Shown: piece after piece, positions 2,392 to 62,731 of the stretch | Layout of the letters: every line of letters starts with the position of its first letter | Position numbering within the stretch: the first letter of the stretch is position 1 | Origin: Zingiber officinale | Lineage: Eukaryota > Streptophyta > Magnoliopsida > Zingiberales > Zingiberaceae | Length of the DNA stretch: 64,000 bases | Assembly (NCBI RefSeq): GCF_018446385.1 | Contig: NC_056001.1 | Location: 8,079,600 to 8,143,599 of the forward strand | Reading direction: 5' to 3' | The notes under the pieces: generated by a model | What the model was told of the DNA's origin: nothing | What the model saw: only the letters and a program-made list of their open reading frames with translations | Databases searched by the model: none | Translations under genes and position numbers: made by a program

Positions 2392-5300
2392 TCACTCCAG
2401 ATAATCTAAGACATCATCGGGCAGCGACTCAGTCAGTTTTTCTCGACTGATGACCTTAATTGATAGAGCGGCGGGGAGGTAGCCGACTTCCCTGAATTGG
2501 CAGAGTGTCCCTTCAATCGGTAGGTCGAACAAACAAAGAGCTCGATCTGCGACTTTGTAGGCTTGCTTCATAAGATTAAACCTACTCAACTCGGCTCCCT
2601 AAGTCTCTAGGGCCGCTCGGGAGGCCTTCAGCTCTTCCTTCAACTTGGTCAGTTCTTCATCCTTTGCATCGAGTTGGGCCTTTGTCGCAGTCTGCTCGGC
2701 TTATCGTCCATCTAGCTCGGCCTTCAACGTAGTTTAATCCACTCGGCCAACACCAGAAAGCTCCGAGCCATTGAAGATCTAGAGATAAAAAATAAAGATT
2801 ATCGGGTGTTGCCTCAGAATTTGAAAGAGCAAGCTTGTTTATTAAGACGAGCTAGCTGGGTTGCCTGATCAGCGCTCTTGCTTTTCTCCGCCTCCAGCTG
2901 TTCGGTGCTCTTGGCCAGATCAGCTCTTAGTTGAGTCATCTCAGCATTCATCTGCTCCAGTTGTGTCTGAGAAGTAGTTGATTAGCCGCTCGATACCTTC
3001 AGCTGCTTGACTTTCTGTTCCAAAAATGTGAGCCTCTGGCACATAGCCAAGCTCTCCACCCAATACTGCGAAGAACCAAATAAATATAAGAGGCGATCGG
3101 AGATAAATTAAAAAACATATAAAAAACTTACCCCAATGGACATCTGGGTATGGTTGCCCGCGAGCACCCTCAGAGGCATGACTTCTGCGTGGGCTTAGTC
3201 GTCCGTCCATATCTGTGCGAGCGGCCCTTGAATGATTATTTGGTACTCGGGGCTTGGGATTCAACGTCGTTCGACTCATGTCATTCCTCAGTCGGAAGAT
3301 GGATGACAACTGTTATGTTTCGCCGGCCGCTCGGGGTTGATTGGGCTAAGGTGGCTTTACCGGACGGTCGAGACGTTGACGTTGGTCAGATTCTAGACTT
3401 TTGAATCTTCGGTGGTGGCATGAAGGCAACTAGCGGTGTGCAAATGGTTCCCTGGGGCAGACTGAAAAGGGATGGTGTCCGATCAGATGATATAGGGGGA
3501 ACGGTCGCCATAATGGGAGCTGGCATCAAAGTTTCAACTCGTTCAACGGAAGGAAGGCGCGGGCTAGTTCTGGTGGGGGTCCGCGCAACGGAGGAAGCGG
3601 AGCGGGATGTAGCCTCCGCCCGGCGCCTCTTGCGATTTATCATTGGCTCCCAAGAAGAGGCCGACTCTGACGCCCCCTCAATCGAAACCACCGGCAGCCG
3701 AGTGGGGGGAGGATTTGATGCACCAACCGCTCCACTGTTGCGTGTTCGGCTAACTATCCCTTCGCTCAATGGTGTTGGCGCTCCCTCGCACTCTTCGAGT
3801 GAGTCTTCATGCGAGCCGATAAGATGCAAACCGCGGCTCTCCAACTCAGTCACGACCGCCGCATTGATCTAAGCGTCCGCAAGCTTTTCTTTGTCGGCCA
3901 GACGTGCACGCAACATAACTTGATCTGCAAAAGAGAAAGAAAAATCAGTTAGATTCAAAAGTTAAGCCAAGAAGGAGTGTACCTAGGCTAGACGGAATCT
4001 TCGTGGGGATCGGGCTCAAGCCGAACACGTAGAGGACTCTCTCATGCAACAATTTATAAATTAGGTATGATCCTGTCTGAGCGATAAGTCGACGGGCGCT
4101 AGGGATGTGGTGCTCTCTGCTGTCTTCGGCTGATGACATGGACCTCCGGTGAGCCTGCAACAAAGCCGAGCCGGGAAGGGGTTCCCGGCGACAATCCTCC
4201 GACGCTCAAGTCAGGCAGTGGCAAGAGGAAGTAGAAGCATAGCAACGAGACCAAGAACTACAGTAGATAAAAATGCATACCTCTACCAAAGGTTGAGGGC
4301 CCTTATATAAGGCATCCTTGAGGGCGCGTGCACGCTCTCCAAGGCATGCACGCCCCTTAAGGCATACCTGGAAATGGTTGTGTCAGAAAAGTACGCTTGA
4401 TGTCATACCTCAATGGTCCGAGCATATCCCTGACATGACAGTGGAAACTTCCACAGTACGATCCTCTGTCCGATCCGACCGCCGACCATGCTGTTTGTCG
4501 ACGGCGTGTGTCTCGAGAAGGACATCTTCGGCTATCCCCTTTGTCTTCTTCTGCATCTTTTGTCTACTACCGTGTCGAGCGAGAGAGCCGCTCGGCCAGG
4601 CTGATGTCCGGGGGGGACGCATACCGGACCGAGTGGGTAGTCCGCTCGGCCCTATACTCGGACAAAATGTGGACTTCATTGTTCCACGGCTATGCCGAGC
4701 GGATCAGACGCTCGGCGTATCACCCATCATATGCGAACTCATGAGCGTCGAAAGCCCGACCCCGTGGTCGGACTATCTCCGCGCCGATCGGGCGCTACCT
4801 AAGTTTGATCCCCGATTGGCCAGGCGATCTCCCGCCCGACCACCCGCATGAGTTGATCGCCTTGACCGCCTTCCACGTGTCCTCGATAACTCCTCGTACG
4901 GGACTCCACTCTTACCACCAGATCACGGTATTTTTGCCCGGCCAATTGTGAAGCTGTGTGGAGGTAGTCCGATCGGCTCTTGTATTTCTTGAGCTCTGAA
5001 GGATTTGGCGCTTCTAATTTCCATCTGGTCGGGAAGTCCGACCTCTTGGGAAAACGAACAAAAAAATAGTAGTCCTTCCAATGTTTATTAGAGGACGACA
5101 TCTTATCAAAGAAAATAAGGCCCACTCGGGCTTGGAAAAGAAAAATCCCCAGCTCGGACAACTTGAGATAGTAGAAATAATGGAAGAGCCAAAGAGTAAG
5201 GGGAATGTCGTGCAAGCGGAATAGAACGACGACCCCGCACAACAGTCGAAAGGAGGTTAACACTAGTTAATATAAGGAGATATGAAAATATTTGCAAACG

Positions 5301-5542
5301 GCTGAGAAGAAAGAGTGGATCGGGAACCGCAGACCGACGGTAAATTGGTCCCTGAAAAATGTTACGAAACCGGGTGGCGGTTTGTCCAGACGGTCAAAAG
5401 TAGAAGGAAGACCGATTTGATAGTTTGGCAGAATTTCGTATGGAACCCTCATACTCTCCGCATCGCCTGCGTCGAACCTAGACTCAATGGAGGTGTACCA
5501 GAGTCCAGAGACGACTGTGGGAAGCTGAGATGAGCTTGCCAT
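2392..5542 (-). mobile_element. antisense accessory ORF region of the Tat element (fossil)
   Basis: Minus-strand coding remnants resemble the plant retrotransposon-associated 'putative gypsy-type transposon / Transposase_28' protein. The clearest stretch, about 4,960-5,540, has phrases typical of that domain: PPGFVTFFRDQF, FRLLCGVVVLFRLHDIPLT, FQARVGLIFF and KHWKDYYFFVR. Further along the minus strand (about 2,590-2,700) is a charged coiled-coil stretch rich in Glu, Lys and Leu, also typical. In Tat-lineage elements this reading frame lies opposite to gag-pol between pol and the 3' LTR, as here. The copy is broken at several points. Confidence 0.65.
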
Positions 5543-6264
5543 CGAAAGAACAAGATCGAAGACAAACGATCAACAGACACTAAACCGAATCGATCGAAAA
5601 CCTACAAGGAAGATCACGCAGAATCGATCAAAGAGGCGGGAGATTATCGGAGTATAGGAGGATCACCGGCGAATAAGCGAAATGCCATAGCGGCGAAGCT
5701 CGAAGACGAAGGCACGAAGTGGAGAAGACGACGACACACGTGAGGCTTATAAACCTCATGGCCAATTGCTCTCAACCGTCTGATCCAAGTTTTCAAAACC
5801 CTAGAAGAAGATCTAACCGTGGAATTCAAAGGGGTGCTAGTCACGTTAGCAGAAGATATCCGCCTATCTTGTCAGGCGTGCAGTGGCAAAAAGAGGGGCA
5901 CGTGGCATGCAGTTACCAGGTAGCATTTAATGAATTTAATTAAAAGGGATGGTTGCGTGTTCGACGATAATTGTCAAGGATTTACACGGATTTCGAGAAA
6001 TATGGGTGACGTCAGCGACGACCAAGACCGCTCGAAGAAGCACGTTTGGAGAATTCTCCAAGTATCGCCTCTCATTGCCCCGCGCTGCATAGAGAACAGG
6101 TTACCAGGCACTCTGATCGTCCATTTGCTATGGTTAGACAACGACTGAGCGACGTTGGTTGATGCGTCGATCAGATAGTAGGGATCGAGCATTCCCATCA
6201 GACGTAAAATTCACTAAGGACCAGTTATCCAGTTAGTCCGACCTGTAGTCTCCTTCGACTAGAC

Positions 6265-6278
6265 TTGAGGGGGAGACT
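6265..6278 (+). other. polypurine tract of the Tat element (fossil)
   Basis: The purine run TTGAGGGGGAGACT lies directly before the TGTGATGCGGTGATAAG that opens the LTR. A polypurine tract in this position primes plus-strand synthesis in LTR retrotransposons and fixes the element's orientation as +. The same tract is present in copy B at about 46,769-46,782. Confidence 0.75.
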
Positions 6279-6790
6279 TGTGATGCGGTGATAAGGGAGG
6301 CTCACTTGTCACGGGTCAATTGACACGGTGTCGATCAAAGTCAAGGCGGTCAACGCCGGGCTTAAGGTTATCCCGGTCGGCAAAGGAGTGGCCGATCGGA
6401 CATCACCCGGCTGGTAGGGGCATCATGGGCCGGTCGACAGGAAAACGAGCCGCTCGGACCGTCCGTTCGACGCAAAGAATGACATTACACAGGAGAAGAC
6501 AAGAAAGCAAAAGAGAACACGTCATCTATCATTAAATATGAAGAAGTCAAGACAAAAAAAAATACTACATTTATCATCAATGCATAGAAGTCAAAACAAA
6601 GAAGTATTCCTTTGGCAATTAATATAATTAAATAAGGATAGATGAACAATCACAGAAAAAAGTATAAAAGGGTACGTCAGATATGAAGAAGACAAGATTT
6701 ATCATTTTTTTAATTACTGATTCTCTTCCTAATTTTTACTTGAGCGTCGGAAAGACAACGACAAAGACCCCTTTCCTGGTTTGATTTTAT
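6279..6790 (+). mobile_element. 3' LTR of the Tat-type element (fossil, right end uncertain)
   Basis: Starts TGTGATGCGGTG immediately after the polypurine tract. Near 6,720-6,800 it has the segment ACTTGAGCGTCGGAAAG and the run ending TTTTACAGG, resembling plant gypsy LTR tails. I could not locate the terminal CA or a target duplication, so the right end is approximate and could lie a few hundred bases further on. The first 380 bp or so differ clearly from copy B (46,783 onward), including several short indels. From about 6,664 the two copies become identical while still inside the LTR. Confidence 0.6.
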
Positions 6791-8170
6791 TTTACAGGAT
6801 TGAAATTTTCATCCCGTCAACGGTCATCCCATCTCCAACTTTCCAACTTCCTTCATTCGGAGATGATTATCTACTTTCCCTCTAACAATAACTCTCTTTT
6901 CTTCTTTCTCTTTTCCATAGCAATAGCCCCCCTTTTTCCCTTCCTTTTATTGTTTTCTAGCATACCAAAGGCGATCCTAGACCCTAGTCCTCCCTATGAA
7001 ACAAGAGCAGCCCTTTTGTTTTTCGTTTTTTTTTTTTTTTGCCTTTTCTTATGATCAAAGTTATCTGAAACTTGTCAAAAAAACGAGGGTAAGACTTTCA
7101 TTTTCTTTTCCTTTCATCCTTATAGTTATTTTTTTTTTCCTCTTGACCAATTCAAGCAAATCAACCGTAGTTCAAACTGTTCAATTTGGTTTATCTTTTG
7201 ATCTTTTAGTTTACTTTATTTCCCATCTTCAGCTAAATGCCAATAGTAGGAAAAATAAATCACCATAGTTGTTTTGCAGTTCATAATAGGAAGCCACAAC
7301 TTTTATTTTATCTAGCGTTTCTATCCTTTACCCTAAATCCAACAAACAATAAGTTCAAGTCCTCCCTAATTCTAATTCTGGATCCGTCCCTGCCCGTATC
7401 AATTGTAAATACATAGAAGTTGATGTTCAATTCTTTGTTCCCCATTAAGGTCCATCCTTACTTGATGATCTGTGTCCATGGTCAGAGTTTATCACAGCAG
7501 GTTCTCTACGACATCCCTTGCTATATGGGATCACATTGAGGAAGAATATCAATGCAGCATGCATCACTCTACGAGCATGAGGATGCTACCAGACTTGTGA
7601 ATTGGTCGGTCAGGCTCGGGATTCAAAATGCTACATAAAAAAGCAAAGTAATCTGGGAAGACCACAAAGAAACAAGGAGGAAGAAAGAAAGAAAGAAGAC
7701 GCGCGTCCTCAGGGCTTGCCGGCGCAAGAGCAACAACGGCAAGCATTTCCAGAGTTTTTTTTTTAATTTCTACCTGTAAATCGACAATCCGTGTCCAGTG
7801 GTGGCTTCTCGAATTCATTGAGTATTAAAGAAAGCACATCGCATGCCATTGGGCATGGAGACAACGGCGCGGTGGTCGACCTCTTGGAGCAGGAAACTGC
7901 GACCTCAACGGGCGCGCCTCAGGGACGTCGACCCGACAAGGTGACCACTCCCTCCCTCATTAACCGCTAATTCATCCACGCCTTTCCATTTAATTTAATC
8001 CAGTTGGTATTTTCTGTAGAGGACGCTGTCAGCTTTTTCTGGTAGGACGTGGAATAATTTGAAAAGAGGGAAAAGGGGTAGCAGTATTCAGAACTTAATT
8101 GAGACGCATACTCTTATCGGGATTGTTTCAGTCCTCAGCAGACGTCGTGTTGTTCTTCGCTCCTTTCCTC
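6791..8170. other. intergenic; upstream region of MIR396
   Basis: No gene recognised. The left part is T-rich with long T runs. Around 7,670-7,700 there is a short AAAG-rich tract. From about 7,850 the GC content rises toward the MIR396 promoter. Open frames here are short and have no recognisable domain. The whole block is identical in copy B. Confidence 0.6.
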
Positions 8171-8178
8171 TATAAATA
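8171..8178 (+). promoter_or_regulatory. TATA box of MIR396 (copy A)
   Basis: TATAAATA in the context cctcTATAAATActcc, about 90 bp upstream of the hairpin base. Plant MIR genes are transcribed by RNA polymerase II and often have a TATA box about 30 bp before the transcript start, which would put the start near 8,200-8,210. No other TATA-like site of this quality lies near. Confidence 0.65.
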
Positions 8179-8277
8179 CTCCGGCCCCCTTGGCTGCCAT
8201 TTCCTCTATCCTTAAATCACTGCGGCTCTTCCTCTACAGCTCTTCGTAATGAATTCATGATGGCCTTCTTTGTAGTC

Positions 8278-8298
8278 TTCCACAGCTTTCTTGAACTG
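8278..8298 (+). ncRNA. miR396: mature miR396 (5' arm)
   Basis: The 21-nt sequence begins TTCCACAGCTTTCTTGAAC and ends TG, matching the conserved plant miR396 a/b-type sequence. The 5' U and 21-nt length fit loading into ARGONAUTE1. Expected targets are GRF transcripts at the site encoding part of the WRC domain; none of these lies in the window. Confidence 0.95.
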
Positions 8299-8365
8299 CA
8301 TGCAATATTCCTCCTTGCAAATTCTGAGGAATCTTTTGAGAAGTGATCATGCATAACGAAGTGCA

Positions 8366-8386
8366 GTTCAATAAAGCTGTGGGAAA
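8366..8386 (+). ncRNA. miR396*: miR396 star strand (3' arm)
   Basis: The 21-nt sequence begins GTTCAATAAAGCTGTGGGA and ends AA, the familiar miR396 star. It pairs with the mature strand with few mismatches and a 3' offset, as expected for DCL1 products. Its presence at the right spacing makes the hairpin call firm. Confidence 0.92.
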
Positions 8387-8405
8387 TCACAGAGAACGGT
8401 GGCCA

Positions 8406-9458
8406 AAGATTATGCCTTTCTCTCTCTTTCTTTTCATTTTCAGGTAAATATCCTTCCGCCTCCTAATACGTCCACGGGTTGATTAAAAGAGAAATTAAAG
8501 GATGCCATGGACCATGAATTGACTCCTAATACGAAGGCATTTATCAATTTCCTTTTGATCCAAAACGTAGTGATACTTCGGTATCACGGATGTTCCAGCC
8601 GAATGAATTAATTCATGCATGTGTGTTTATAATAGATTTAATTCTTTCACATGTGCATGTTCTATGGGAGTATTAATGTCGGATCGGAGAACAAATTTGG
8701 ATAAAGTAGGCTTAAGTGAACGAAATGATCAATTCATCTTCGAACAAGTCCACTACTGCCTCATTTAAAAGAAGAGGTCATCGAAGACCAACAAATATGT
8801 GATAGTAATTCATCTTGTGCATGACCTAATTCATCTTATGGAGTTAGATTATAATCAACCGCCAAATTAATTAGGGGTCGGAGAGATTTTTTTTCGAAAG
8901 ACATAGTCGACAGGAATTAATCTATGACTCATTATAATAAATTTATCATCTTCTAACCATGCCCTGTAAAATTCTAATGTGATGGTAAAAGATAATTTAC
9001 TCACACTCAATATCTTCATCAATACATCCTCAAATTAATACTGAATAGATAAATCATCATGAATAACTACCGACCTTACATCTGTAAAATTTTAACACGA
9101 AAGGTTGAAGAAGTTCTTGTTAGACCCTTAAGGGGTTGATTGTGTAATAAAATTCATTTTTTAAAAAAAAAATAATAATAACAACTGTGGTGGGTTCGTC
9201 ACTTCGTTGGACCATGTTAGATCGAATCTTATCTACTTTCCTGTCTTCGGTTCGTCAGCCTTCGTCACGAGACTTCACGGTCTTTGTTTATTTCCCGAAT
9301 TCCCAAATTACCCTTTTCCGTCTCACTGCGTTTCCCTTCCATCATTCATTCGATTTTGTCCTTATCCGTCCAATCACCCCCGCTAAATACGAGTAACTCT
9401 ACTCCCCTCTCCCCAATTCCCAGTTCCGATCTCCTCTCCATCGCCCTCTTCCTCTGCA
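8406..9458. other. intergenic between MIR396 and the small gene
   Basis: No gene seen. It contains MIR396 3' sequence and then AT-rich DNA. About 8,870-8,955 resembles a dispersed repeat also present near 38,545-38,625: a T run followed by tcgaa, then attataataaat-tatcatctt. The last 250 bp become pyrimidine-rich and lead into the 5' region of the next gene. Confidence 0.55.
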
Positions 9459-9899
9459 ATGGGATTCTCCGCCGATCCCTCGCCTCCCTCTTCCCCTCCC
9501 TCGATCAAGCAGCGCCTCCGCTCCTCGATCTCCTTCTCCTGCTGCTTCCGCGGCGCCATCGTCAGCGCCAGTGCCGCCGCCGACGAGGATCAGCCGGCAT
9601 CGCTGGTCCGATCCTCCGCGGCGTGGATCCGGTCCAAGGCGCAGGATCTGATGGAGATCGTGGGGCAGTGTCCCGGCCTTGTTCCGGCAATCGGGAGGCG
9701 CCACCAGGCCCACCGCCGCCGCCGCTCCTGCGACTTCCGCTACGACCCGCTCAGCTACTCCCTCAACTTCGACGAGGGCCCCGACGAAGAAGACGCTGTC
9801 CTCGCCGGATCTGGCGAGCGGCCATTCGGACACCCGAGCTTCTCCTCCCGCCTACCTCCATCCTCGCCGCCGCGCCCGGCCATAGAGATGGCGTGTTAG
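9459..9899 (+). CDS. uncharacterised small plant protein, 146 aa (copy A)
   Basis: A single-exon gene with strongly GC-rich codon use (many C or G third positions), typical of monocot 5'-rich genes and unlike its AT-rich surroundings. The protein starts MGFSADPSPPSSPPS, has a Ser/Pro-rich N-terminus, a CCFRG motif near residue 28, a basic stretch HRRRRSCDF near residue 90, the conserved-looking core FRYDPLSYSLNFDEG (about 92-106), and a Pro-rich C-terminus. I recall that F-x-Y-D-P-x-S-Y-x-L-N-F signature from short plant proteins of unknown function. No signal peptide or membrane segment is evident. The ATG at 9,459 follows a pyrimidine-rich leader. A longer overlapping open frame of 262 codons (9,284-10,072) is a GC-rich shadow. 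I assign no function. Confidence 0.75.
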   Translation: MGFSADPSPPSSPPSIKQRLRSSISFSCCFRGAIVSASAAADEDQPASLVRSSAAWIRSKAQDLMEIVGQCPGLVPAIGRRHQAHRRRRSCDFRYDPLSYSLNFDEGPDEEDAVLAGSGERPFGHPSFSSRLPPSSPPRPAIEMAC

Positions 9900-10407
9900 C
9901 GATCTCAACCGTATCCGTAGCTGCCGCTTTAATTTCTGACTTAGGTTCTATCTGTCTGTACATGTCTGAGAGTGACCTTGATGCTCTTCTGCCTCGCTGT
10001 TTTATTTTCTCTGGCATTTTTGCAGACAAGAATAAGTTTTTTCTCCCTCGGAATCCCCTAGTCGGAAGGTAAAACGACTCTTGCTCTTTTAAAAATAGGG
10101 TCAGAAAGAAAGACAATGCGGTTCAGTTCAGTATTTAATTGCACCGTGACAAAAGAGAAGAGCAGGAAGGAAAAAGCACACTCAATTATCTCTAGTTATT
10201 TTTTTTCTTGGTGGCTGAGGAACAAGTAAAAGAAAGAATTCACCATCACATTGTGTCAAACTCTCAAGAGTCAATATCGGTGTGCGATGCGTGTTAACGC
10301 TTAATAGCTTCGCCTGTGCCTTTGCATGACCAACGGTAGTTCCTGACATGATGAGTACTCCCGACACTACCAGTGCGATGCTTGCTTTCATCGATGCCCA
10401 TGCCGCA

Positions 10408-10556
10408 TGTGACTGCTATGGACGCCCGCATCTCGTCCCCTTAATTAATCTTTTTTCTGCCCTTTACTGCCATGAAAACAGCGACCAATCCATCTAGTCT
10501 TGTTTTAGGTGGACATGGTTTTGACACAAAATGCGGGCGTCCATGGCAATCACACA
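10408..10556. repeat. inverted repeat, stem about 25 bp, loop about 100 nt
   Basis: The left arm TGTGACTGCTATGGACGC...GCAT (10,408-10,431) pairs with the right arm ATGCGGGCGTCCATGGC... (10,531-10,556). Twelve consecutive bases ATGGACGCCCGC and their flanks match with only a few mismatches. The arms could fold in RNA from either strand. It could be the remains of a foldback element or a young small-RNA hairpin; nothing here decides. Confidence 0.6.
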
Positions 10557-11078
10557 GTTTTGGGGGTGGACTGGAAGAACTCAGAGATTTTGGCGCTTTC
10601 CTATTTTTAATCCTCTCTCTTTTATACGCATCGTAAAAATAAAAACGGTGAAGGAAGTAAAGAGGACAAGGATGGGGCACCTTGCCAACTCAATAGTTTG
10701 GACTGTTCTGCCTCTCGCCCTGTGATTGATTGCGAGTGCTGGCCTGTAACGGCGTATAGATGATAACTCCTCCGTATAATGCAAAACAACTTCAAATTTC
10801 TTGTTAGACACATAACCTTATTGTCATATAGATTACAAATAATTGGGATTACATCTTTAACCATGTCAACTTAAATTATTTAAAACCACTTTGTAGGCGT
10901 TTTTGTGATTATTCTTTTGGAAGTAGTTGTCATCAGAAAGTTAGTCTTAGAATGAATTGTGGGTATGCTGCGGATTTAATTAGTCGGAGACAAAATGAGC
11001 ACGGACAAAGGTACAATTTGCGGTAACCCATGTTGGTGCATACTAAATTGGAAGTACTGACGCACATGGCCCACTGTG

Positions 11079-11103
11079 CATGTGGCTTGTGCAAAGCCAC
11101 ATG
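11079..11103. repeat. perfect short hairpin before the Raf-like gene
   Basis: CATGTGGCTT, a five-base loop GTGCA, then AAGCCACATG: a perfect 10-bp stem about 285 bp before the start codon, immediately followed by CATGCAAGC. The position is within the likely promoter or leader. The function is unknown. Confidence 0.5.
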
Positions 11104-11360
11104 CATGCAAGCCCATGCAACGCATGAAACAGGGGCCCACAAAAAAAATTGTAAACACCATTTGCATATAAAATTTAAAAATAATAAATAAACCCTGAAA
11201 ATCTCTGCCAGTTCGTATCTCAAAGCGGCATTAAGTAATAAACAAGTTTCTAGAATACATTAATGTGTGTTTATTCTCTTGTTACGTTGTATTTATTATT
11301 AAGTATTATTCATCGTATCGATTCTGTTATTTCTGGTTTCCGTTCTTTTGATCGGCCTTC

Positions 11361-11368
11361 AAACCCTA
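11361..11368 (+). promoter_or_regulatory. telo-box-like motif in the 5' leader
   Basis: AAACCCTA lies 19 bp before the start codon at 11,387. Telo boxes near the transcript start are common in plant genes expressed in growing tissue. Its closeness to the ATG suggests it is in the transcribed leader. Copy B has the same motif at 51,848. Confidence 0.5.
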
Positions 11369-11386
11369 GCCTTGGGATCGCCAGAA

Positions 11387-14300
11387 ATGGTCTCCGATCC
11401 CATTGCCGACCAGTTGGCATCATCAACCTTCGCCGCCGCGTACGACCGGAAGGTCAAGCTCCTCTGCAGCTACGGCGGCAAGATCATTCCGCGGGCCATC
11501 GACGGCTCGCTTCGCTACGCCGGCGGGGAGACGCGCATCATTACCCTCCGCCGTGATTCTTCCATCGCCGAGGTGCTCCGGAAGGTGACCGAGACCTATG
11601 GCCGGCCGGTGTTGCTGCGGTACCAACTCCCTGACGAGGATCTTGATTCCCTCGTCACAGTTTCCACATCCGAAGACCTCGAAAGCATGATGGAGGAGTA
11701 CGACAAGCTCACCGCCGATAGACTTAACGCCAAGCTTCGGCTCTTCCTCTTTTCGCCGTGTGAAGTTGGCGCCATTGGGGCAGATTCCTTTAATCCTTCT
11801 TTTGATCCTGACCAAATTGGCACGAGGTACATCGAGGCAGTTAATGGATTAAATTCGAGCATGAAGAGAAAGAAGTCGACGAACTTCTCTTCGTCACGGA
11901 AGTCGGATGCAATGGCCGCCACCGTGGTAGTGACCACTGAAGGTATGGGCGTAAAGACTGTGGTGCATGACGGCGTGGTGCCTTCTCATGCATGCCCCAC
12001 CTCTACTTCGTCACATGATTCATTCAACTGGGTTTCGAACGAGCAGCATAACAAAAATATGCAGCCAGCAATTGATTCTGCTAGCGAAATAGAGTTGTTG
12101 ACTTCAAATCAACCAGAACGGCCTCGTACAATTTCAAATGAGAAGAACAAATTGAGTTCAGGCCAATTTGGATTCCCTTCTTTAGAAGGTTGTGTACCAG
12201 AAACATATGTCAATGCACAACATGCCTTAATGAGGAGTTCTCTGGCAATGGGCTTCCCTCCTCCGGTCAACCATTTTAGTCTTCCAGCACAAACATATGC
12301 GCCAGTGACCCCCAATGATGCCCTGCATTTGGAAAATCCTAATCTTGTCACGGCTGTGAAGTTTTCTGGTGATATAAAGCATCAACCCGTGTTCCTACTT
12401 CCTCCATTGCCTTCTGCAAGCTTGCTTTCCCTGAATGATTCAACAATGAGATTGGATGATTGTACTTTGTGTCAGAGATCTTTACATCATGCTCATTCAG
12501 AGATTCTGGTAAAGAAGCAAGGCAATAAGCTTAATGACATTGCTCCCGAAGCTAATGCAATCTTGAAAAGTCAGCATTCAGAGGATTTGACAAGCATGCA
12601 AGCTCCTCAGCTAACAGATATTGGAACACTAGAAACTGAAACAGGGACACAAACTGATAATTTAGTAGCTGCAGCTCCATCAAACACCTCTGAAATTAGT
12701 AAGACTGCAACTGAGACATCACTAGAGAGCGAGAAGACAATTATAAGTGTATCCAATGTGGATCTTGATAGGGATTTGATACCACCAGTTTCTGTGGGCA
12801 TGGAAAACAACCCACAATCATCATACATAATTGAAATTAATTTGCACAAATCTTGCGAATCAAACTCTCTGCAAACAAAGGCTGATGGGCCACTATCCTT
12901 GGACATCAACCCAGAGAAACTCATCCAACCAACTATGCTTGAACCTTGTGGAGCATCCCTGGTTCTACCAAATTCTACAGTAGGGGATTCTTTGCAACAG
13001 CGAATGCTATTGCCAGAGCTTAATGTGTTTCTTAAGTATCCTGTTAGTCAAAACTTCAGTAATCAATCACTCATTTTTGATAATGCTTTTGTGGATAATA
13101 ATAATCTAGTTGGAAATTCAGATTATGAAACAAATAGACAACCAAGTCATAGAACTGCACGCACATTCTCACATGGCAATTGTAAACCTGGAATTTCAGA
13201 TTCTAGTAACCTGCTGAGACCAAATGGAATCCCCGATGTCGACACATCCAAGTACTTAAAGCCTGAACAACAACCACTGATTATTGTGAACACTCTTAAC
13301 ACTGGAATGCAGGATCAGGGGGATAAACTGTCTGTTATTAATCCTGTTAGTAATCCTGCAGTTGCTCCAGAAGCAAATGATGATGTGTTGATTAATCAAC
13401 AGACATCTGCACCTATGGATGCTGCTTACCTTCAGAATTTCGAACCTGCTTACACTAGTCAGATTCCAATTATGTCAAGGATCCATGGACAGTATCTATA
13501 CTATCCTGCAGCCAAAGATGGACCAAGAGGGATGTGCATGAATGTGGATCATAGTTTCAGTGGCAATGACATCAACAAGAATCCCATTGTCAATTTGAGT
13601 GACGAGATTCCTAGTTTAGTCTCCAAGAACATATTTAGTGTCCCAGCTATCCTTCAAAGGGACGGTGATCAACATTACACTTATTGCCATCCAAGTAACA
13701 CCGACCAATTGCAGCAAGTTGTTGACTTTGACTCACTTGTCAGCAACAAAGAAGTGCAGAAAGATATAGGAATTACATCAGTTCTGCCTCCAGTATCTGG
13801 TGATATTCCCAGCGAAGACTCAATAGCTATGGACATGCACAATAAAGTTTGTCCTTTGAGCTCTACGGTTGCTGTTCCTGCTGAAGATATCTTGTGCAAC
13901 TTACCTATCCCTCCTAACATTGATTCAACCACAGATCTTGCTTCATTTAAAGGTTGATCCCTCTCTCTTTGGCTGTAGAAAACATCCAATTATTATATCT
14001 TAACTTAATGCATTGTAAACATCTTTCTCTCTTGTCAAAAATTTAACAGTTGTTCATAACAAGCAAGAAATTCAAACTTCTGAAGAGAGTGCATCAGCAG
14101 TGCTGGAACTGCAGCCATGTGACATGCAAGTACCTGCTTTAATCTCTCTTGAAGCAAAACAGAGAACTCCTTGTTTTGATAAAGAATGTGGGACAACTGA
14201 GAATAACAAAGACAAACATGACCAAATTGAGGTGATTTACATATTCACAACATTAACACTGCCATTCTTATTAGGAACCAACAATCATTGTAATGCAGAT

Positions 14301-17300
14301 GGTCAAGGCCAAACAATCAGAGAAGATAAAGTGCACTTTCCACAATAGAAATGGTCTTGGACATCTTCAGGTTTGATGATGGAAATCAGCATTTTTTGGT
14401 TTCTCTATTTCTTTTTGAAATTTGTGTTTTCAAATGGATAGTGTTGGTTTTACTTTGGTGAGTATTTAAACCTGTAGTGTTTGATTCAGATAATCAAGAA
14501 CAGTGAATTGGAAGAGTTGAAAGAGCTTGAGTCTGGAACTTTTGGGACTGTGTATCATGGCAAGTGGAGAGGTTCAGATGTTGTGATTCAAAGGATCAGT
14601 GATAGGGTTTTTGCTGGGAAGCCATCAGAGCAGGAGCATGCAGTATGTGCAGTCATTCACAAATTGCTTGCTATATTTTGTTTCTTTAATTTCCATGTTT
14701 ATATGTGTTTATTCATACCCTCAGAAAACTAACTTTTGGAACGAAGCTTGTAAACTTGTTAACTTGCATCACCCAAATGTTGTGGCATTCTATGGAATTG
14801 TGTTGGATGGCCCTGGTGGATCCATTGCAACAGTATCAGAGTTCGTGGTTAATGGTTCGCTTCGGTGTGCTTTGCTGAAAAATGAGAAGTACCTTTGTTT
14901 CTCCTATTACCTTGTGCAAGAAACAATTGCATAATTTAAGGTTTTCATATTATTAGGATAGAATTTGACTTTACTATCTTTGAGCAGGTTGTTTGATAGG
15001 CGCAGGTGTCTGCTTATTGCTATGGATGTGGCATTTGGCATGGAATACCTTCACAGTAAAAATGTCATACATTTCGACTTGAAAAGTGAAAATTTGCTTG
15101 TTAATTTGGGGGATATTGAACGTCCAATATGCAAGGTAAGATTGTATGGTTTGTGTTAAAAGAATGCATTTATTTTTGCAAGTGTTTTTACAACTCCAAA
15201 GAGGTTTTTGTTGGGGGAAAACTGTAACTGAAACCCTTAAAGAACAACTAGAAACTTTCCCCTTTGGGAGTGGGTCTAGAAGAGCCTACTAGTTATAGTC
15301 CTCACCATGTCCATCAAGGTGCAATTTCACATTTTTGGTGACACTATTTTGCCATGGCTCTCAAGGCATCTAACGTTGATGCATACTACCCTGTTCCTGA
15401 AGTTACCTCCCATAATACTCTCTGCCACACTTTGACCTTACAATTTTAACCTTTCTACCTATTGACTTGAAATAAAATCAACCATATGAGATAGGTGTCT
15501 TCTAACTAATGCCTTTGAAATGGAATTAGCCAACATAAAACCAATATGAGAGTGTTCTAGGATCACCTATTGATTTTGAATCCACTCATTGATGGCACAA
15601 ATGAAAGGTTAGCTGTTAAGATTCAGACATTCAGACTATCTTTGAATGGTTGAACATTCAGATGCAGATTATGTTGCACTACGAGATACATTTTTCTATT
15701 AGCAGGTGGTGCTGCCATCTTGTGAAAGAGTAAAAAAGCAAAAGCTAATAGCTATGTCCGCATCTGAAGCTGAATACATAACATGTTATAAGGCTACTTC
15801 ACAGGCTTTGTAGATTAAGGCTCACTGCTTTTTACATATCTTGAGTTGTCCAATTGTTTTATTTATCTTAATAATTTGTTTACCCTTAATGTAGTTCACA
15901 CATAACCTTTCATGCCCTGTAGGTAATGTAAATGTTTTTTTTTTCCAGTTTTTGAATGAGTAATGCCTTGATCACCTTGATATCTCTCTAGCATCCATAA
16001 TGAATATTATATTTGATCTTATATAAGTCTGGGCATATATTAGACTTCTTACCAAGGAAGAATATGGAATACTTTTACTTATTCCCTCTCAATTTTATTT
16101 ATTCCCTGTACAACAGGTGAAGGGACGCTAGAGCAATTTCTCATCCTAAAACAATGTCAATATAAGCCCTTCAAGACAAACTAAGTAATCTCTTAGAAAT
16201 GCAATATTGCTACGTCTCTTGTTTTCAGATTTGTTTAAATTAAATATTAAGTTTGATATAAACTTGTTATTTGATAATTTGGTCAAAGTGGGACATTGTT
16301 GAGAAAAATCTATAGATATCTCAAATTGCCTTTTTGACCTGTCAAATATCTGTCTAATGAGACAATTAAGTATTTTATCAATTGGATAATTATTTTTTAT
16401 CATCACAAGAACTTTTGTTTGAAAGTGTCAATTAACCTATTTTTTATAATAATAAAATAAAAAAGGATTTAGCTAGTATAAGTATGGGGGTGCCTAACAC
16501 TAGAGCAATTAAGCATTTGAGAGTTCTTATCCTATGATCAATTGATAGTGCACATTAAGGCTCTCGGGGGTTAGAAGGCACTTACTGCATATGGTTGGTT
16601 TTCTTTCGAGTCAAATTCTTAATGTAGCGATATCGGTATACTTATAATTCATGCAGAATTTTGATTCGCTCATATTTGTTGTGTTTTTCATTAGTCATGG
16701 CAAAGTATTTATTATATCTTGTATCTGATTTTTTTATGTCAGTTTCTAGATGGGGAGTAACTACCTTAACCATATTAGTTTTGCACACTTAAAGCATTGT
16801 AGTTCTGGAGTAAACATGGGAGGGCTGTTACTTCTCTTTGCTTTCTCTCTCCTCCCTTTGGTTTAAATAGACCATGCATCGTTTATCTGAAGTGCTTTGT
16901 AATTTGCCATTTTTCTTCCGTGTCACAAAGTTAGCATTTTGCTGGAAATGAAATCAAGTGTTGAAGTTCCAGCAAAACTAGGGGTGCATGCAAGCTCCCA
17001 TAATTTCTAGATGCTTGTGTTTGGCATTGAGTTCACTTGCGGCTTGCTGGAGGGGAACCTATGTGGGAGTCTTCCAATGATCAAGAGGATTGTTTAGTCC
17101 CAACCCCTAATGTGCTTCCTTCGGCATTTTTGTGTTGTTATTATTAACATTAGAAACACAGATGACATAGCATTGACCCTTGTTCTTGTGACAGCTTTAT
17201 TTTCTGCTTTGCATTTTTTAGTAAGTTTCTTGAGATTGGATGCACTGGCATCTATGAGCTTTTTCTGTCCTGGTCACCTATTGCAGATTGGCTATCTTCT

Positions 17301-17999
17301 CTCAAAAATAAAATTCAAGGCATTGGTGTCCAGTGGAATGCAAGGAATTGTACCCTGGATGGCTCCAGAGCTTCTTCGAGGCAAAGATGCCCATTACACT
17401 GAGAAAGTAAAGTTTGTCTATTCTATTATTCCTAGAAAATCCTTGCATTTTTATCTTATGGTCCATATGTACTTGTCATTTTATCAGAAGTTTGGAAATG
17501 AGTTAATCACATATGAAGTATAATGAATATAACCTTTTTCCTTTCTTTGTTTTCATCAGGTAGATGTATTCTCCTTTGGGATTGTGATGTGGGAGCTCAT
17601 CACTGGAGATGAACCGTTTAAAGACATGCATTATGGAGCCATTATAGGTGGTTTGATTCACTAATACTCCATTATCGACAATGTCAAGGCAAACTTGAGT
17701 TCAGTTAGCAGTTAGCAACTGATATGTTTGGATCTTTTTTAAGAAAAAAGATTATATGAAGCACTGATATAGTCTAAAATAACTAGGATGTTTTCAGACA
17801 ATTGCTCATTTGTTTTCAACTTTGAGCAGGTGGGATTCTGGAGGGCACGCTGCGACCTCCTGTGCCTGAATCTTGTGATGCTGAGTGGAGATCACTTATG
17901 GAGCAATGCTGGGCCACTGACCCGGAGCTGAGGCCAGGCTTCGCCGAAATCGCTGGCAGGTTAAGAATAATGTTACTTTCATTTCCTCAGGAAGGATAA
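11387..17999 (+). CDS. PB1-domain Raf-like protein, predicted pseudokinase, 1,196 aa (copy A)
   Basis: Eight coding exons: 11,387-13,952; 14,050-14,231; 14,490-14,642; 14,725-14,888; 14,988-15,135; 17,287-17,406; 17,560-17,647; 17,830-17,999. All introns are GT-AG and the phases close to 1,197 codons. Residues about 20-120 form a PB1 domain ([15 protein letters not shown] and the acidic loop around [13 protein letters not shown]). A long, Ser/Asn-rich middle follows. The C-terminal 280 residues align with group-B (B4-type) plant Raf-like kinases, including [21 protein letters not shown] and [16 protein letters not shown]. Key catalytic parts are altered: the first Gly of the Gly-rich loop is Glu ([12 protein letters not shown]), the VAIK lysine is Gln (VVIQRI), and the DFG motif is replaced by YL in KIGYLLSKI. 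The HFD aspartate and Asn are kept. B4 Raf-like kinases act on SnRK2s in osmotic stress; this one is more likely a scaffold. The start is the ATG at 11,387, as the upstream in-frame TTG is not a plant start. Confidence 0.88.
15655..15813 (+). mobile_element. Ty1/copia RNase H fragment (fossil) in intron 5
   Basis: A short piece resembling the end of a copia pol gene, with the SDADY-like start (tcagatgcagattat) and the KSKKQK...SEAEY-like segment (aaaaagcaaaagctaat ... tctgaagctgaatac) that marks the RNase H domain. It lies in the 2.15-kb intron 5 of the Raf-like gene in the gene's orientation. It is old and broken; no LTRs were found around it. Confidence 0.6.
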
Positions 18000-18830
18000 T
18001 TTCTAGCAGCAAGGCCAACTTGTGGAGTCATTCACCAACTAAAAGAGGGCTAAATTTGCAGAAGCTTGTGTCCATAATCCATGAGATTTGTGATGGCTCT
18101 TCAACCTTTTTTTTTTTTAGCATCCATCATTCTTCTATAATTTTCTTGATTTTTTTTTCTTGCAACCAGCTGAGAAACATCGGCCAACAATTATCAGTTT
18201 ACTAGTGAATAACGTACTACGGTTCTGGACTTTCCACTACTATGTTAGTATCTGGAAGTGTCAGTTAGCTGAATTATCTGCTAATGACAATATAATAATA
18301 TAAAACATAATGATGATCAGAGAATAGTGTCAAATATTGCTATGGCTCAATTGGGCGAGGAAAGGCACACTTCTCCAATTAATCCACATATGGTTTTTTT
18401 TTTTTCTTTGAAAAAGTAAATATAAAAAAATTCAGTAGCAATACTACCTACATAACATGGATCTATTGAGGGAGCCTAGTTAATGGATGTGTTGATTTGG
18501 TATCAAAAAGAGCACTATTACCTTAGTCAGATTCATTTTTTACATATCAAAAAGATCACAGGCATTGATTTGGAATCAACCCACTGAAAGGCTTTAAATC
18601 AAAATTTGGCCCTAATCAAAACTGTAAAATGTTGAAATAGAGGACCAAATTGCTCTTGATTATAGCCCGACGCCTCTATACTGACCTGGGCTCCCATCTG
18701 CTGTAGTGCTACTCTATTTCTAATTTCGTCGCCTCCTCTACCTTTAGGAGACAATTGGCCAGCAAGAAGCTTGGAGAGGAATTATTGTCGCGGCGGTCAC
18801 TTTCTTAAATCTGGCTTCGGCGAGGGCCTC
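18000..18830. other. 3' flank of the Raf-like gene
   Basis: The 3' UTR and downstream sequence of the Raf-like gene, AT-rich with several T runs. I see no further coding sequence. A GC-richer stretch from about 18,660 leads up to the hAT target site and is identical in copy B. Confidence 0.6.
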
Positions 18831-18838
18831 AGCGGTAG
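18831..18838. repeat. hAT target-site duplication, left (copy A)
   Basis: AGCGGTAG directly precedes the element's TAGACCTGACC end. The same eight bases follow the other end at 21,707-21,714. An 8-bp duplication is the hallmark of hAT transposons. Confidence 0.9.
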
Positions 18839-21706
18839 TAGACCTGACCACGGTTCGGAACCGACGGTTCGACGGTTCGGAACCGCCGGTTCGACGGTTC
18901 CAGGCAGGTCGACCCTTAACCTTAACCGCCCAAGACGGTTACGGTTCACGGTTCAGAACCGCCGGTTCACGGTTCGGTTCACGGTTCGTCACGGTTCGTC
19001 ACGGTTCAAGATTAATATGTTAATAAAAATTAAAAATTAAAAATTAAACATTAAACATTAAAAATTAGAAATTAAAATTTATTAAAAAAAGGGCTTGCAC
19101 TTATTTAAGTTGCCTACGTATCCCTTTAGGGGAATCAAAGCCCACGTAGTTCTTTTATATTTTTATTCTTTTATATTTTCACTCACTTCCATTTCTCGTT
19201 CCTGTCGTATTCGTTCCTTTAGTATCAAAATCTTCAACTTCGTCATTTGAAAGTTACATTCCTTAGATTCTTTTCTTCGCTCTGGTCCAATTGTCTAGTA
19301 ATGCTTGAGCTTCCAATGAGTCGGGAGATAAAGTTGATCGTCGTTCATCTAATATGTTGCAGCGCTGAACGTCTGTTACAACAACGATTGATTTGGACAA
19401 GCTAAAATTTCTTTTGCGCGATCGAGAGGACGGAAAAGCTTTGAGCCTTCTATGACCACCACTTTAAGATATCGAAGTCTAATTCGCTATTTGCTTCATT
19501 AAAATCAAAAGAAATTATAAAATAATTCTCAAGTTACTGTGTGAAATTTTTGTCTATTCTTTTAATAAAAGTTGTGCTTTTGTAAGTTTTAAATTACTAC
19601 TACTAGTTTGTTGAATTTTAGAAATATTAATTTGTGTTCCATATTTTGCATAATATTGATTATAAATATCATATAAATAAATTCTAACATTATATATAAT
19701 ATTATTTGGATCGGGGGAAGAAGAATCTTTAATTGGAATTAAAGCATCATAATATAAAGTTAACATTTCTTGTAAAACTTCTAATTTAAATCTAGGATCT
19801 AAAGCAAATGCAATTAAATAAATTTCAGGAATTAAAATAAAATATTTTTCCCATTTAGTTTTCATAGCTAAGATGCAAGGAGATAAAGATTCATTATTAA
19901 TATGTTCATTTAAAACTAATACTATATTAGAAAAATTTTCTAAAACTAATTGAGCGGGATAATAAACACAGGAAAGTTGTTCGGTTGCATTATTAAATAC
20001 TTTTAAAATTTCACAAATACTACTACAAATATTCCATTGTTGTGAAAATAAATATATATTAGCATTAGTGTTTTGTGCAAAAATGAACATAATAATTCTT
20101 TATATTGAAATGAATCTTGTAATAATTGGTATGTTGAATTCCAGCGTGTTGGTACATCACGTGGAAATTTTTAGGTCTCATTCCATTAATTTTACAAAAC
20201 CTACCCCATTGTTTCATTATAGATGGATGAGACCATAAATAAGAAATTGCAATTCTAATTGGTTTAATATAACTTTCTAAAATTTTTAAACCATCTTGAA
20301 CACATAAATTTAAAACATGGCATACACAACGAATATGAAAAATAAACCTCAATAATAGGTTGACAAACAAATTTTAGATCATCTATACAAGCGGTATTAG
20401 AACTAGCATTATCTAATGATATTGAAAATATTTTATGAGTTAAACCATATTCTTCTAAAATTAAACATAATAATTGTGCGATATTATGAGCATTATGTGA
20501 TTCATCAAAAACTCTATAAGCTAATAATCTTTTTTGGAGGTTTTAAGAGTTATCGATCCAATGGCAAGTCACACCCATATACGAATGTGTTTGCCAATGA
20601 TCACTCCAAATATCGGAACATAAAGAAACTTTATTATCTAATTTACTAAATTCATCAATTAAATTCTTTTTTCCTTGTTTTACTAATTTTTTAATTATAC
20701 GAGTAAGTGTAGTCCTAGGAACACGTTTAGCACATGGATTAAGAGATTCTTTACAAAAATCTTCAAATGTGCATTTAGATCCAAAACTAAAAGAAAGATG
20801 TTCTACGGAAACAAATTTAGCTAATGATTCTCTTAATTTATTATCCGAATATAAAAATAAATCGGAATCGGTACTACCGCTAGTTGAAGAAAATCTTGAT
20901 AATTGTGTTTGAGAACGGTCGAGTCCATATTCCGTCGGGTGCTTCGTTTCTACATGTCGTTTCAACGACCCATAGCCGCCGCCGGCTTGGAATTTGTAGG
21001 AAGCATTGCAGTGCTTACATTTTGCACGCATTTCTCCCGACGGAAGAGTGACCTTCTCAAAATGTTTAGTAAAAATAGAAGACTTTAGAGGAGGAAGTTC
21101 CCGAACCTTAGAAGTAATTGCATCGGTACTTCCTTGTGTTTCGGGTGTCGGATTCGGAAGATGCTCGATCTCATCATCGGTGGATTGAATGTTGGGGTCC
21201 TCCTCCATGATTCATTATGTTGCTTTTCCGAGCTCGAGATGATGACCTCCGCGGCCTCCTTCCATTGTAATTGAAAAGAAAGCGTGTAGAGATTAGAGAA
21301 TACGAAAATGAGATTAAGAGTAGAAGATGTGTGTGAAAAATGATGAAATAAGCTCTCTATTTATAGAGTTTTGATAATGTGGACACTAAATCATAGCCAT
21401 TGATCAAAAAGCGGTCAAATGATCCTAACCGTTGAAAAAAATACCTAAAAACCCTCCCATGACTACGAACCGCGGTTAACGGCGGTTCCAACTATGAACA
21501 GCGGTTAACCGTGTTCAAGCCGTTAAAAAAAAAACGGTGAACCGCGGTTCAACCAGCGGTTAACCGCGGTTCGCGATTTACATCAATGAACGGGCCCGGC
21601 AACTTGCGGGCGGTTCCGGCGAACCGGGTCAACGGGCAACCGGCCCGTTGACCCGGTTACGGGCCCGGGCCGGGTCCGGGCCAGACCCGGCCCGGGGTCG
21701 GGTCTA
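18839..21706 (-). mobile_element. hAT DNA transposon, 2,868 bp (copy A)
   Basis: Bounded by short terminal inverted repeats, TAGACCTGACC at the left and TAGACCCGACC read inward from the right, and flanked by the 8-bp duplication AGCGGTAG. Both ends are packed with subterminal repeats of the CGGTTC / GAACCG type; at the right these grade into GGGCCCGG runs. The transposase gene lies on the minus strand. A TATA box for it, TATAAATA on the minus strand, is at 21,358-21,365. The element holds the same site in copy B, so it was present before the duplication. Confidence 0.9.
19250..21265 (-). pseudogene. hAT transposase, broken (copy A)
   Basis: The minus-strand coding region starts MEGG-like at 21,265. 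In order it has a BED zinc finger (CKHCNASYKF ... LKRHVETKH), the catalytic-Asp region LCSDIWSDHWQTHSY, the CVCHVLNLC motif, then KFSNIVLVLNE- and ALDPRFKLEV-like parts, and finally an hATC dimerisation region recognisable as ELDFDILKWW (about 19,480-19,430) and LDERRSTLS (about 19,350). The frame is interrupted at least three times, including a stop where copy B has the Trp of DNSWNLQK (near 20,543) and frameshifts near 20,370, 20,090 and in the hATC part. No complete transposase can be made from this copy. Confidence 0.85.
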
Positions 21707-21714
21707 AGCGGTAG
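21707..21714. repeat. hAT target-site duplication, right (copy A)
   Basis: AGCGGTAG immediately after GGTCTA, matching the left flank exactly. Confidence 0.9.
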
Positions 21715-22345
21715 GGGCGAGGGTCTGGTCCCTTTCATACGTCGTAAGTATAGTTGAAATCTAATTAAAATTAGTTAGATTTTTTTTGGATTCATTTTTT
21801 CATCTAGATTATAATTTTATGTCGAATTAGACAGTTTGATGGGTGGACCGTCCTCTACTCGATACTATATAATTTGTCACTGCAGGTGGCCTTTGACCGT
21901 CTGACTTAATCCAAAATTATAATTTAGATGGAAAAGTGACTTAGGAGAGATTGTAGTTAATTTTAATCGGATTCTGATTACGATCCAACATGCAAATTTA
22001 TTAAAAAGATCAGAAAAAAAATTAGAGATTACAAATTAGAAGATCTGGATTCAACTAACAATAAGTGGTGGTGATGTTAGAAGAGAAATTATTTAAAATA
22101 AAGAGAAATTATCTAAAAATTAAAAAGTTATTAAGAGTGGAGGATTATTAGGTGTTTATATAGATTATATTCTTTAACATCACAATAAATTTAAAAATTC
22201 TAATATATAAATTATCATTCTTATCTATTTCAAGAAAGAATTATTAACATTTACTATCCTAAAAATTCAAAATCGACTCAAAATATAAAAAAGATAGAAC
22301 ATATAAAAAACTACCTTAAACACTTAAAGAATAAAAATTATCAAA

Positions 22346-22379
<34 letters not shown>

Positions 22380-22820
22380 TACAGTCATAAGAATTCATCT
22401 TAGAATTTAGAATAGTTTCAGATGATAACCCAAGAAAAAATTTATCTATTTGTAAAATCTACTAGTAGTCGTTGGACTTTTGGAATCCTTGTTAATCCGC
22501 GGACGAGCTTGACATCATGGATGTTATTCTTGTTCATCTTCACGTTTCTCAATCACTTCTTGTATTTTCTCACATGTGCAACATAATCCTTGACGACCAT
22601 GAGATTTTTGGATTTCTTCAGAATTACCTTGTTGCACTTACTGTGAATCTAGAACAAATAAAGGATCATCATCGAACACTTCGTCGTTGTTGAATTCATC
22701 TACCTCATCATCATTCTAAACTTAATCATTAATCGCCTCAACCTCGTCTCCAATTTGAAATTGTGATTTCTCTTCAATTATAGTATCTTCCATGACTTGT
22801 AGCGTATCAGATTCATCAAT
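21715..22820. other. AT-rich intergenic, identical in both copies
   Basis: No gene recognised. It contains the (AAT)n microsatellite at 22,346-22,378 and short degenerate frames. The block appears base-for-base the same in copy B at offset 40,352. Confidence 0.6.
22346..22378. repeat. (AAT)11 microsatellite (copy A)
   Basis: Eleven AAT units. Copy B has the same number at 62,698-62,730. Such loci change length quickly, so equal length argues for a very recent duplication or for a copied consensus. Confidence 0.9.
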
Positions 22821-23308
22821 TTATTTTGGATCAAATTTATGCTCCAAATCATCTTCGAATCCGTCAAGATCCTCTTGTGCGTCGAAGCTATATCCTCCAT
22901 GGTGAATCTTAATCGTCCCTAGAATAAAGTTTGAGAGTAACCAAAAAGAAAAAATTAACTCTTCATCTTCTTTCTCATCTTTTTCGAATCCGTGATCTTG
23001 ATCTTGCCTTGTCTGTCGCATGAGCGTTGCAAGTACTCCCATCCTGACGATGCTAGACTTTGGAGTTTCAAGGCAACCAATTTCACCTTCATCCTATACG
23101 GAACTTGCTTATAGTAAAAAAAACTACTAACTTTATTAATACAATCAACAAAATTATATGTATATGACATACTAGAAAATTCAGATATATCAACTCGAAA
23201 TCTGAGATTCTCTCGACCATGTACCTCACGATCTTCAAAATTTCGTGTCGTTGCGCCTATGGCCTGTGTACCTGCATGAACCTCCCTCCATATCCGTGGG
23301 GCCGGCAC
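22821..23308 (-). mobile_element. Ty3/gypsy gag fragment (fossil, copy A)
   Basis: On the minus strand, a reading frame resembles the central gag domain of plant Ty3/gypsy elements: FVDCINKVSSFFYY, then VKLVALKLQSLASSGWEYLQ and RQGK. The usual family pattern is a hydrophobic helix, VKLVA-KL, then a Trp and a basic RQGK segment. No LTRs or pol are next to it. It is an old, broken remnant. Confidence 0.65.
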
Positions 23309-23648
23309 TAGGGGGGCCGCTAAGGTAGCGGATCTACCTTTTTTTCAAAATTTCGTGTCGCCGTTGCTATACTCCGAGTTAAATCTATAACTTACCTTTG
23401 TAAATTCTCAACTGTGGTGCTCGGTTTTCTCAATCGGAATCTACTTATTGTTGCGACGGTGACCACAACCATGACGATCTTCTATTGGATTTGACGTTTG
23501 ACTTTCTCAATCTAAATCTGTCAACTCTAATAACAACTAACACATGACAGAATAACAATTATCTTCCGTTCTGACAAAAAAAGATGAAATTGGGAAAATA
23601 CCAGGAGAAAAATTATCAAAAATATTTTAAAAATATCTTAAATTATTA

Positions 23649-25165: not shown

Positions 25166-25312
25166 ACCTAATTAAACTGACACTGTTCTATCACAAAGTT
25201 GATGTGTGTGAACAGCTGGGTCAACCTTGATACTAGAACCAGTATTTTTTCTTTGTACTATAACCACTCTTATTCTTCGCTCATTTCCTTGGGATAACTT
25301 GCCCCGAGCTAG

Positions 25313-39142: not shown

Positions 39143-43123
<3,981 letters not shown>

Positions 43124-45559: not shown

Positions 45560-45564
45560 CTAAC

Positions 45565-48657: not shown

Positions 48658-48665
48658 TATAAATA
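48658..48665 (+). promoter_or_regulatory. TATA box of MIR396 (copy B)
   Basis: TATAAATA at the same distance from the hairpin as in copy A. The surrounding promoter sequence is also the same, so both loci should be transcribed alike if both are real. Confidence 0.65.
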
Positions 48666-48747
48666 CTCCGGCCCCCTTGGCTGCCATTTCCTCTATCCTT
48701 AAATCACTGCGGCTCTTCCTCTACAGCTCTTCGTAATGAATTCATGA

Positions 48748-62697: not shown

Positions 62698-62731
<34 letters not shown>

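Follow-up and report, generated by a model that had tools for sequence, protein, structure and literature searches.

The subject of this report is a tandem duplication in ginger (Zingiber officinale), found in a stretch of 64,000 nucleotides of RefSeq assembly GCF_018446385.1 (contig NC_056001.1, positions 8,079,600 to 8,143,599; hereafter the window, whose numbering is used throughout unless a contig is named). The window lies on contig C16 of the 3.09-Gb assembly (211 sequences). A unit of 40.5 kb is repeated there in tandem, and 1.45 copies of it, counted from its left end, fall within the window; the left copy is referred to as A and the right copy as B. The two copies are nearly identical in their genic and intergenic DNA and diverge within three repeats: a high-copy repeat (block 1), a hAT transposon (block 2) and a solo long terminal repeat (LTR; block 3). 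Judged from the sequences, these differences look mostly like uncorrected or wrongly corrected consensus, a reading to which we give a probability of about 0.8; the presence of a second copy may be an error of assembly too.

Distribution of the differences between the copies

We compared A and B base by base along the full unit, that is, beyond the end of the window. Outside the three divergent blocks the copies differ at three positions in 35,047 bp. The original prediction had claimed identity from about 6,664 to 18,950 and from about 21,670 onward, even at an (AAT)11 microsatellite, and this was borne out: 6666–18954 equals 47153–59441 letter for letter (12,289 bp), there is no difference from 21670 to 23648 (the end of the range that had been described), and both copies have 11 AAT units. 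The stretch 27063–27948 is likewise identical. The alignment, which had been proposed as a check, upheld the earlier description and extended it by the third block, by a short island within block 1 and by the part of the unit that lies outside the window. Divergence amounts to 3–4% in block 1 (with one 106-bp piece at 34%), 6% in the hAT element and 19.5% in the solo LTR.

A single copy of the unit is present on a second contig, C15 (10.298–10.335 Mb), and is collinear with the C16 unit and its flanks. Over seven tested segments, two of which overlap by about 760 bp, the mean difference between C15 and copy A is 3.1%, the lowest value being 1.1% (8955–18838) and the values elsewhere reaching 7.9%. 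The difference is close to the heterozygosity of 3.6–3.8% given for ginger in PMC8342499 (statements on this and the other cited papers follow the available parts of their text). The idea that C15 is a polyploid homoeologue was dropped; the assembly matches the haplotype-resolved diploid one of PMC8342452. About 4 kb beyond the unit end C15 has a run of 99 N (C15:10338784–10338882), and the corresponding flanks on C16 are about 26 kb apart.

The three differences outside the blocks are a T6 versus T7 run at 27062 and G/T changes at 39636 (adjoining a T run) and 45515 (adjoining TT). C15 carries the B letter at both of the latter; it also has seven T at 27062, where the site is ambiguous through a neighbouring change. 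All three look like errors of A rather than mutations, and they support our reading: two are plain cases of B and C15 agreeing against A, and the third is a difference in the length of a T run. At a substitution rate of 7e-9 per site per year, zero true changes would place the duplication at less than about 6,000 years, but this figure should not be used, since polishing could also make two real copies alike.

Identity continues for some distance into the repeats. It reaches 116 bp into the left end of the hAT element and 37 bp into the right end (about 110 and 40 bp had been predicted), spans about 355 bp at the start of the LTR and 223 bp at its end, and extends about 200 bp into the right end of the block 1 repeat, which ends at about 6867. 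All of these reaches (37–355 bp) are shorter than one 550-bp insert. The differences lie within repeats and start no more than one insert length from the flanks, the pattern that marks a failure of polishing restricted to repeats.

The assembly analysed is very probably the published cultivated ginger assembly of PMC8342452, a diploid assembly with both haplotypes. Its draft was made from Canu-corrected Oxford Nanopore reads with SMARTdenovo and wtdbg2, polished in twelve rounds (seven of Pilon with 550-bp-insert Illumina reads, five of NextPolish), scaffolded with 3D-DNA and gap-closed twice with LR_Gapcloser. In bacterial genomes, polishing fails in repeats when reads go to the cleaner copy and the other copy keeps its errors (Wick and Holt 2022, PMC8812927), and we infer that this mechanism was at work in the ginger unit. 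The two cases are alike in that unique DNA is corrected and repeat errors stay; they are unlike in that the plant repeats are 1.1 to 2.7 kb long and hold foreign tracts besides residual errors.

We suggest the following course of events. The assembly would have begun as an error-rich nanopore draft; short-read polishing would have brought A and B to the same letters across unique DNA, and correction would have extended into each repeat only as far as flank-anchored read pairs reach. Deeper in the repeats, each copy would have kept draft errors or have been built or rewritten from the reads of other copies, the putative foreign sources in B being the other haplotype for block 1 and, for about 390 bp, another hAT subfamily. 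That the consensus had been corrected by short reads with anchors in unique sequence was put forward in the original prediction, and this is well supported by the pipeline, by the edge reaches of less than 550 bp and by the presence of states that are absent from the sampled members of the repeat families.

Other repeats of the unit are the same in both copies. A 1.16-kb repeat at 24015–25171, overlapping a minisatellite-like stretch (24132–24985), is identical in A and B and has relatives of 81–87% among the 37 places listed; an identical repeat at 31500–32457 has relatives of 75–78% among the matches listed. Together with the divergent elements, these comparisons, a partial test, suggest that A and B differ only in repeats with closer relatives elsewhere. 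A GAGCTCG-rich element of about 490 bp with a short flanking duplication (34153–34644) is present identically in A and B and is lacking on C15. Its relatives (34161–34645) are 85–90% similar among the matches listed, and its identity fits a length short enough to be spanned by read pairs. A hAT-like stretch at 25600–27109, which resembles the hAT interior in opposite orientation at about 70% similarity, occurs on C15 too and is the same in A and B save at 27062.

Contents of the three divergent repeats

The repeat of block 1 is present in high copy number (8,335 first-look candidates in the genome), and the fragment occurs at the matching place on C15 too. Its earlier label, Tat, is kept here as a candidate name only; the 155-aa frame at 4799–5266 gave no Pfam family. 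A difference of about 3%, mainly transitions, had been reported, and over 5071–6350 we count 43 of 1,273 bases, 38 of these being transitions. Between 5072 and 6665 B agrees with C15 against A at 51 sites, and A with B against C15 at only 5; directly to the right of the block (6666–7400) A and B agree against C15 at 30 sites (13 and 17). Fisher's test on the site patterns of the block and its right neighbour gives P of about 4e-11, with approximate totals. To judge from these sites, B opens with the C15 allele and switches to the C16 allele between 6639 and 6723. The A state at the 51 sites is found in none of 12 other family members at 16 sites and in seven or more of them at 18, so that A looks like an ordinary C16 allele.

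Within block 1, the island at 6350–6470 differs at 36 of 106 bases and by four indels. Here A is 82–89% similar to the 12 members and 95% to C15, and B is at most about 75% similar to any. A agrees with C15 against B at 34 sites in the block, 33 of them within the island, and for 25 of these 34 none of the 12 members shows the B state, which supports our interpretation of the differences; we read the island as uncorrected draft sequence. Replacement of the whole block 1 element by a family member is not supported: the other copies listed are at most 88% similar to A and at most 87% to B, as against 96–97% for C15.

Block 2 lies in a hAT transposon that is flanked on both sides by an 8-bp AGCGGTAG duplication, has inverted ends, TAGACC (left) and GGGTCTA (right), and encodes a zf-BED finger and a hAT RNase-H-like domain (Pfam). 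It is lacking at the matching place on C15. As first described, both copies carry the same target duplication and their interiors differ by several percent with many indels (153 of 2,542 bases and 27 indels in the pairwise alignment). Comparison with other genomic copies of the element, which had also been suggested, was run with eight copies taken from near the top of the match lists, a set biased to clean copies. In the resulting ten-sequence alignment the eight members differ from one another by 0.7–1.9%, A differs from them by 3.2–4.7%, B by 2.3–3.7%, and A from B by 5.3%. Substitutions seen in one sequence alone number 82 in A, 59 in B and 5–24 in each member, and private indels number 12, 10 and 2–6, respectively. 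Of the 142 columns that separate A from B, the members agree with B in 81 and with A in 58, with 3 ties.

The private states of A and B lie in different patches, those of B at about 59814–60212 and 61896–62017. A separate search with the A patch gave no relative above 90% among the 39 other places scored, and this, together with the different positions of the patches, argues for errors of the consensus. The first 150 bp of the A patch hold 15 transitions (12 of the C-to-T type) and no indel; among the private substitutions, changes of this type account for 33 of 79 in A and 35 of 60 in B. As a guess, they may stem from miscalls linked to methylation, from true deamination, or from reads whose own copy the assembly lacks.

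The B patch has a close relative. It is 99% similar over 354 bp to C2:121632424, 96% and 93% similar to two other places and 88–89% similar to the others listed. Over the main stretch the C2 element is about 85% similar to B, and 38 of 43 B-private states of the patch are common to both, A having 2. On this match and these common states, B contains a tract, about 390 bp long, that belongs to another subfamily. At the left edge of the tract about 37 bases are deleted that are present in the C2 copy, and small indels lie at the right edge; conversion should leave homologous borders, which stitching need not do.

Other accounts of the hAT differences fared less well. Pure noise as the source of the private states in both copies is ruled out by the real relative of the B patch, and replacement of the whole element by a family member is not supported, the best whole-element matches listed being 94–95%. 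Over-correction of a truly diverged element towards its family is disfavoured: the first 300 bp of A hold no states absent from the members. The A and B elements are missing from each other's match lists, in which 40 places were scored.

Block 3 lies inside a solo LTR, recognised by its TG...CA ends (TGTTAGG...CACCAACA), its 5-bp TATAC duplication, the lack of an internal region and an empty site on C15. A and B differ at 200 of 1,024 bases (19.5%) and by 43 mostly short indels, in an alignment that is uncertain owing to internal tandem repeats; short indels are found in both copies. The two LTRs are each other's best full-length match (84%, or 87% with some flank included). Among the 47 matches listed for a 501-bp piece of the B LTR, the full-length ones reach 77% in copy A and no more than 76% at other places, and the partial ones reach up to 86%. 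Both the want of a good full-length match for this piece and the 43 mostly short indels again point to consensus error.

Origin of the second copy and alternative explanations

As to the duplication itself, we lean towards the view that it is false and of the homotype kind: one locus would have been kept as two overlapping contig ends, which were then joined. Private differences stand beside the junction, although polishing would be expected to have removed them if short reads spanned that point: position 45515, in A, is 43–44 bp before the junction, and the first 15–25 bp of B show several edits with a shortened run of adenines. The left edge lies within a high-copy repeat, and the first 1.6 kb of B come from the other haplotype, as could happen at the tip of a contig. 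The two rounds of gap closing (PMC8342452) point the same way. In homotype false duplications (Ko et al. 2022, PMC9516828) near-identical adjacent copies stay unmerged through read errors. The ginger pair is like these: haplotype differences are lacking in unique sequence (three in 35,047 bp, where C15 differs by about 3%), and the private states and short indels of both A and B would represent residual sequencing errors.

Several observations weigh against these interpretations. The joined stretch of 144 kb about the unit is free of N, the junction included, and in this the ginger copies are unlike homotype pairs on one scaffold, for which an N gap between the copies is a usual mark (PMC9516828); the assembly was, as noted, gap-closed. 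At the one N gap on C15 mentioned above, no overlapping contig ends were found, only minus-strand matches of at most 365 bp at 71–83%. The 211 sequences here compare with 219 scaffolds in Table 1 of PMC8342452. The middle of the hAT element is cleaner than its sides (15 of 1,417 bases, or 1.1%, and 9 indels), which is unexpected under a simple distance rule. The hAT tract and the block 1 allele of B are real sequences from elsewhere and not noise, and the C-to-T excess could also come from real deamination. Finally, the rule that only repeats with closer relatives diverge rests, for 31500–32457 and 34161–34645, on an incomplete match list in which even the window's own place is missing, and altogether on sequence other than 8665–18838.

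The strongest alternative, somewhat less probable than a false duplication, shares the main part of our reading: the duplication would be genuine and very recent, with consensus errors confined to the repeat interiors. The absence of N across the junction, the sharp ends of the unit and the failure to see overlapping contig ends at the C15 gap are all in keeping with it, and the short edited join could be the result of end joining. Less in keeping with it are the private differences to the left and right of the junction, which twelve rounds of polishing should have removed if short reads crossed there, the 1.6 kb of the other haplotype at the opening of B, and the two rounds of gap closing.

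Ectopic or allelic gene conversion of transposable elements leaves tracts of another copy within otherwise unchanged sequence, and B holds such tracts, namely the C15 alleles at 51 sites of block 1 and the hAT tract with its 99% match to the C2 element over 354 bp and its 38 of 43 common states. We nevertheless consider it improbable that the differences are real and that the elements were converted by family members or by the other haplotype after a recent duplication. No donor above 90% was found for the A hAT patch among 39 places, and none above 77% at full length for the LTR piece of B. The deletion of about 37 bases at the tract edge is not in the C2 copy, the noise island falls within the allelic tract, and all events would have to be squeezed into a period in which 35 kb gained no clear substitution. 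Conversion, either of the genic part or of the elements, had been named in the original prediction as the other possible explanation: for the genic part it is not supported, and for the elements no donor was found for either the hAT patch of A or the LTR piece searched, conversion being formally conceivable for the hAT tract of about 390 bp and the allelic block 1 tract of B.

It is very unlikely that B arose by replication-type repair in which the template switched repeatedly, both to the homologous chromosome and to dispersed repeats. Synthesis would have begun on the homologous chromosome within a dispersed repeat, copying the C15 allele for 1.6 kb at the junction, and would have continued on the C16 template with excursions to unlinked hAT and LTR copies. 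If true, B would record each jump at dispersed repeats in a clonally grown crop. B does open with C15 sequence at the junction, goes back to C16 between 6639 and 6723, and holds a tract of another hAT copy; however, A, the supposed untouched original, also has anomalous hAT and LTR stretches without relatives, and B holds noise without any template.

Least probable of all is an old duplication whose real age survives in the elements, conversion between A and B having homogenised the genic and intergenic parts: a single shared hAT insertion with one target duplication is compatible with it, and elements could in principle record an older age, but conversion of the genic part was rejected because the blocks lack a single older age (3–4%, 6% and 19.5%, with only 1.1% in the hAT middle) and because block 1 of B is the allele of the other haplotype, not an older C16 copy, and every conversion border would need to fall just inside an element.

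If the differences are mostly errors of consensus, as we favour, the unit carries a warning: in polished long-read drafts, genic identity beside transposon divergence can be a product of polishing. It is unsafe here to date the duplication or the insertions from the repeats, to call transposon conversion, or to count the PB1-kinase gene twice. Private repeat states, identity reaching no more than one insert length into elements, and differences at a junction form a pattern by which other cases may be flagged.

Features of the window and its surroundings

Table 1. Positions of the unit copies, divergent blocks and other features, in window numbering.
Feature	Positions	Strand	Remarks
Copy A of the 40.5-kb unit	5058–45559	+	From self comparison; one copy on C15
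Block 1, copy A (high-copy repeat)	5066–6665		Resembles ordinary C16 allele
Partial gene with PB1 domain and protein kinase piece	11303–14931	+	Pfam; within identical stretch
hAT transposon of A with AGCGGTAG duplications	18831–21714	-	Element 18839–21706; transposase pieces on minus strand
Block 2, copy A	18955–21669		Private states mainly at about 19158–19560 and 21209–21590
(AAT)11	22346–22378	+	11 units in A and B (B at 62698); 8 units on C15
Solo LTR of A with TATAC duplications	27589–29306		Element 27594–29301, 1.7 kb; none on C15
Block 3, inside the LTR	27949–29078		B partner 68302–69355, outside the window
A/B junction, at about 45558–45560	45515–45580		Private differences on both sides: 45515 in A, first 15–25 bp of B
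Copy B of the unit, part inside the window	45560–64000	+	Continues to about 85836, past the window end
Block 1, copy B	45563–47152		Agrees with C15 against A at 51 sites
Noise island in block 1 of B	46854–46959		Best other match about 75%
hAT transposon of B with duplications	59318–62066	-	Element starts at 59326
B hAT tract matching another hAT subfamily	59814–60212		C2:121632424, 99% over 354 bp

A Pfam scan of eight frames from the unit found no family in four of them. To the left of copy A, 1372–2151 is a tandem repeat array whose copies are about 75–80% alike. Farther upstream, outside the window (−14412 to −4857 in window numbering), a pair of 2.3-kb direct repeats, 97.4% alike, bounds a stretch that is not present on C15. 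The empty C15 site has an overlap of about 5 bp, and the stretch resembles an LTR retrotransposon that inserted in just one of the haplotypes.

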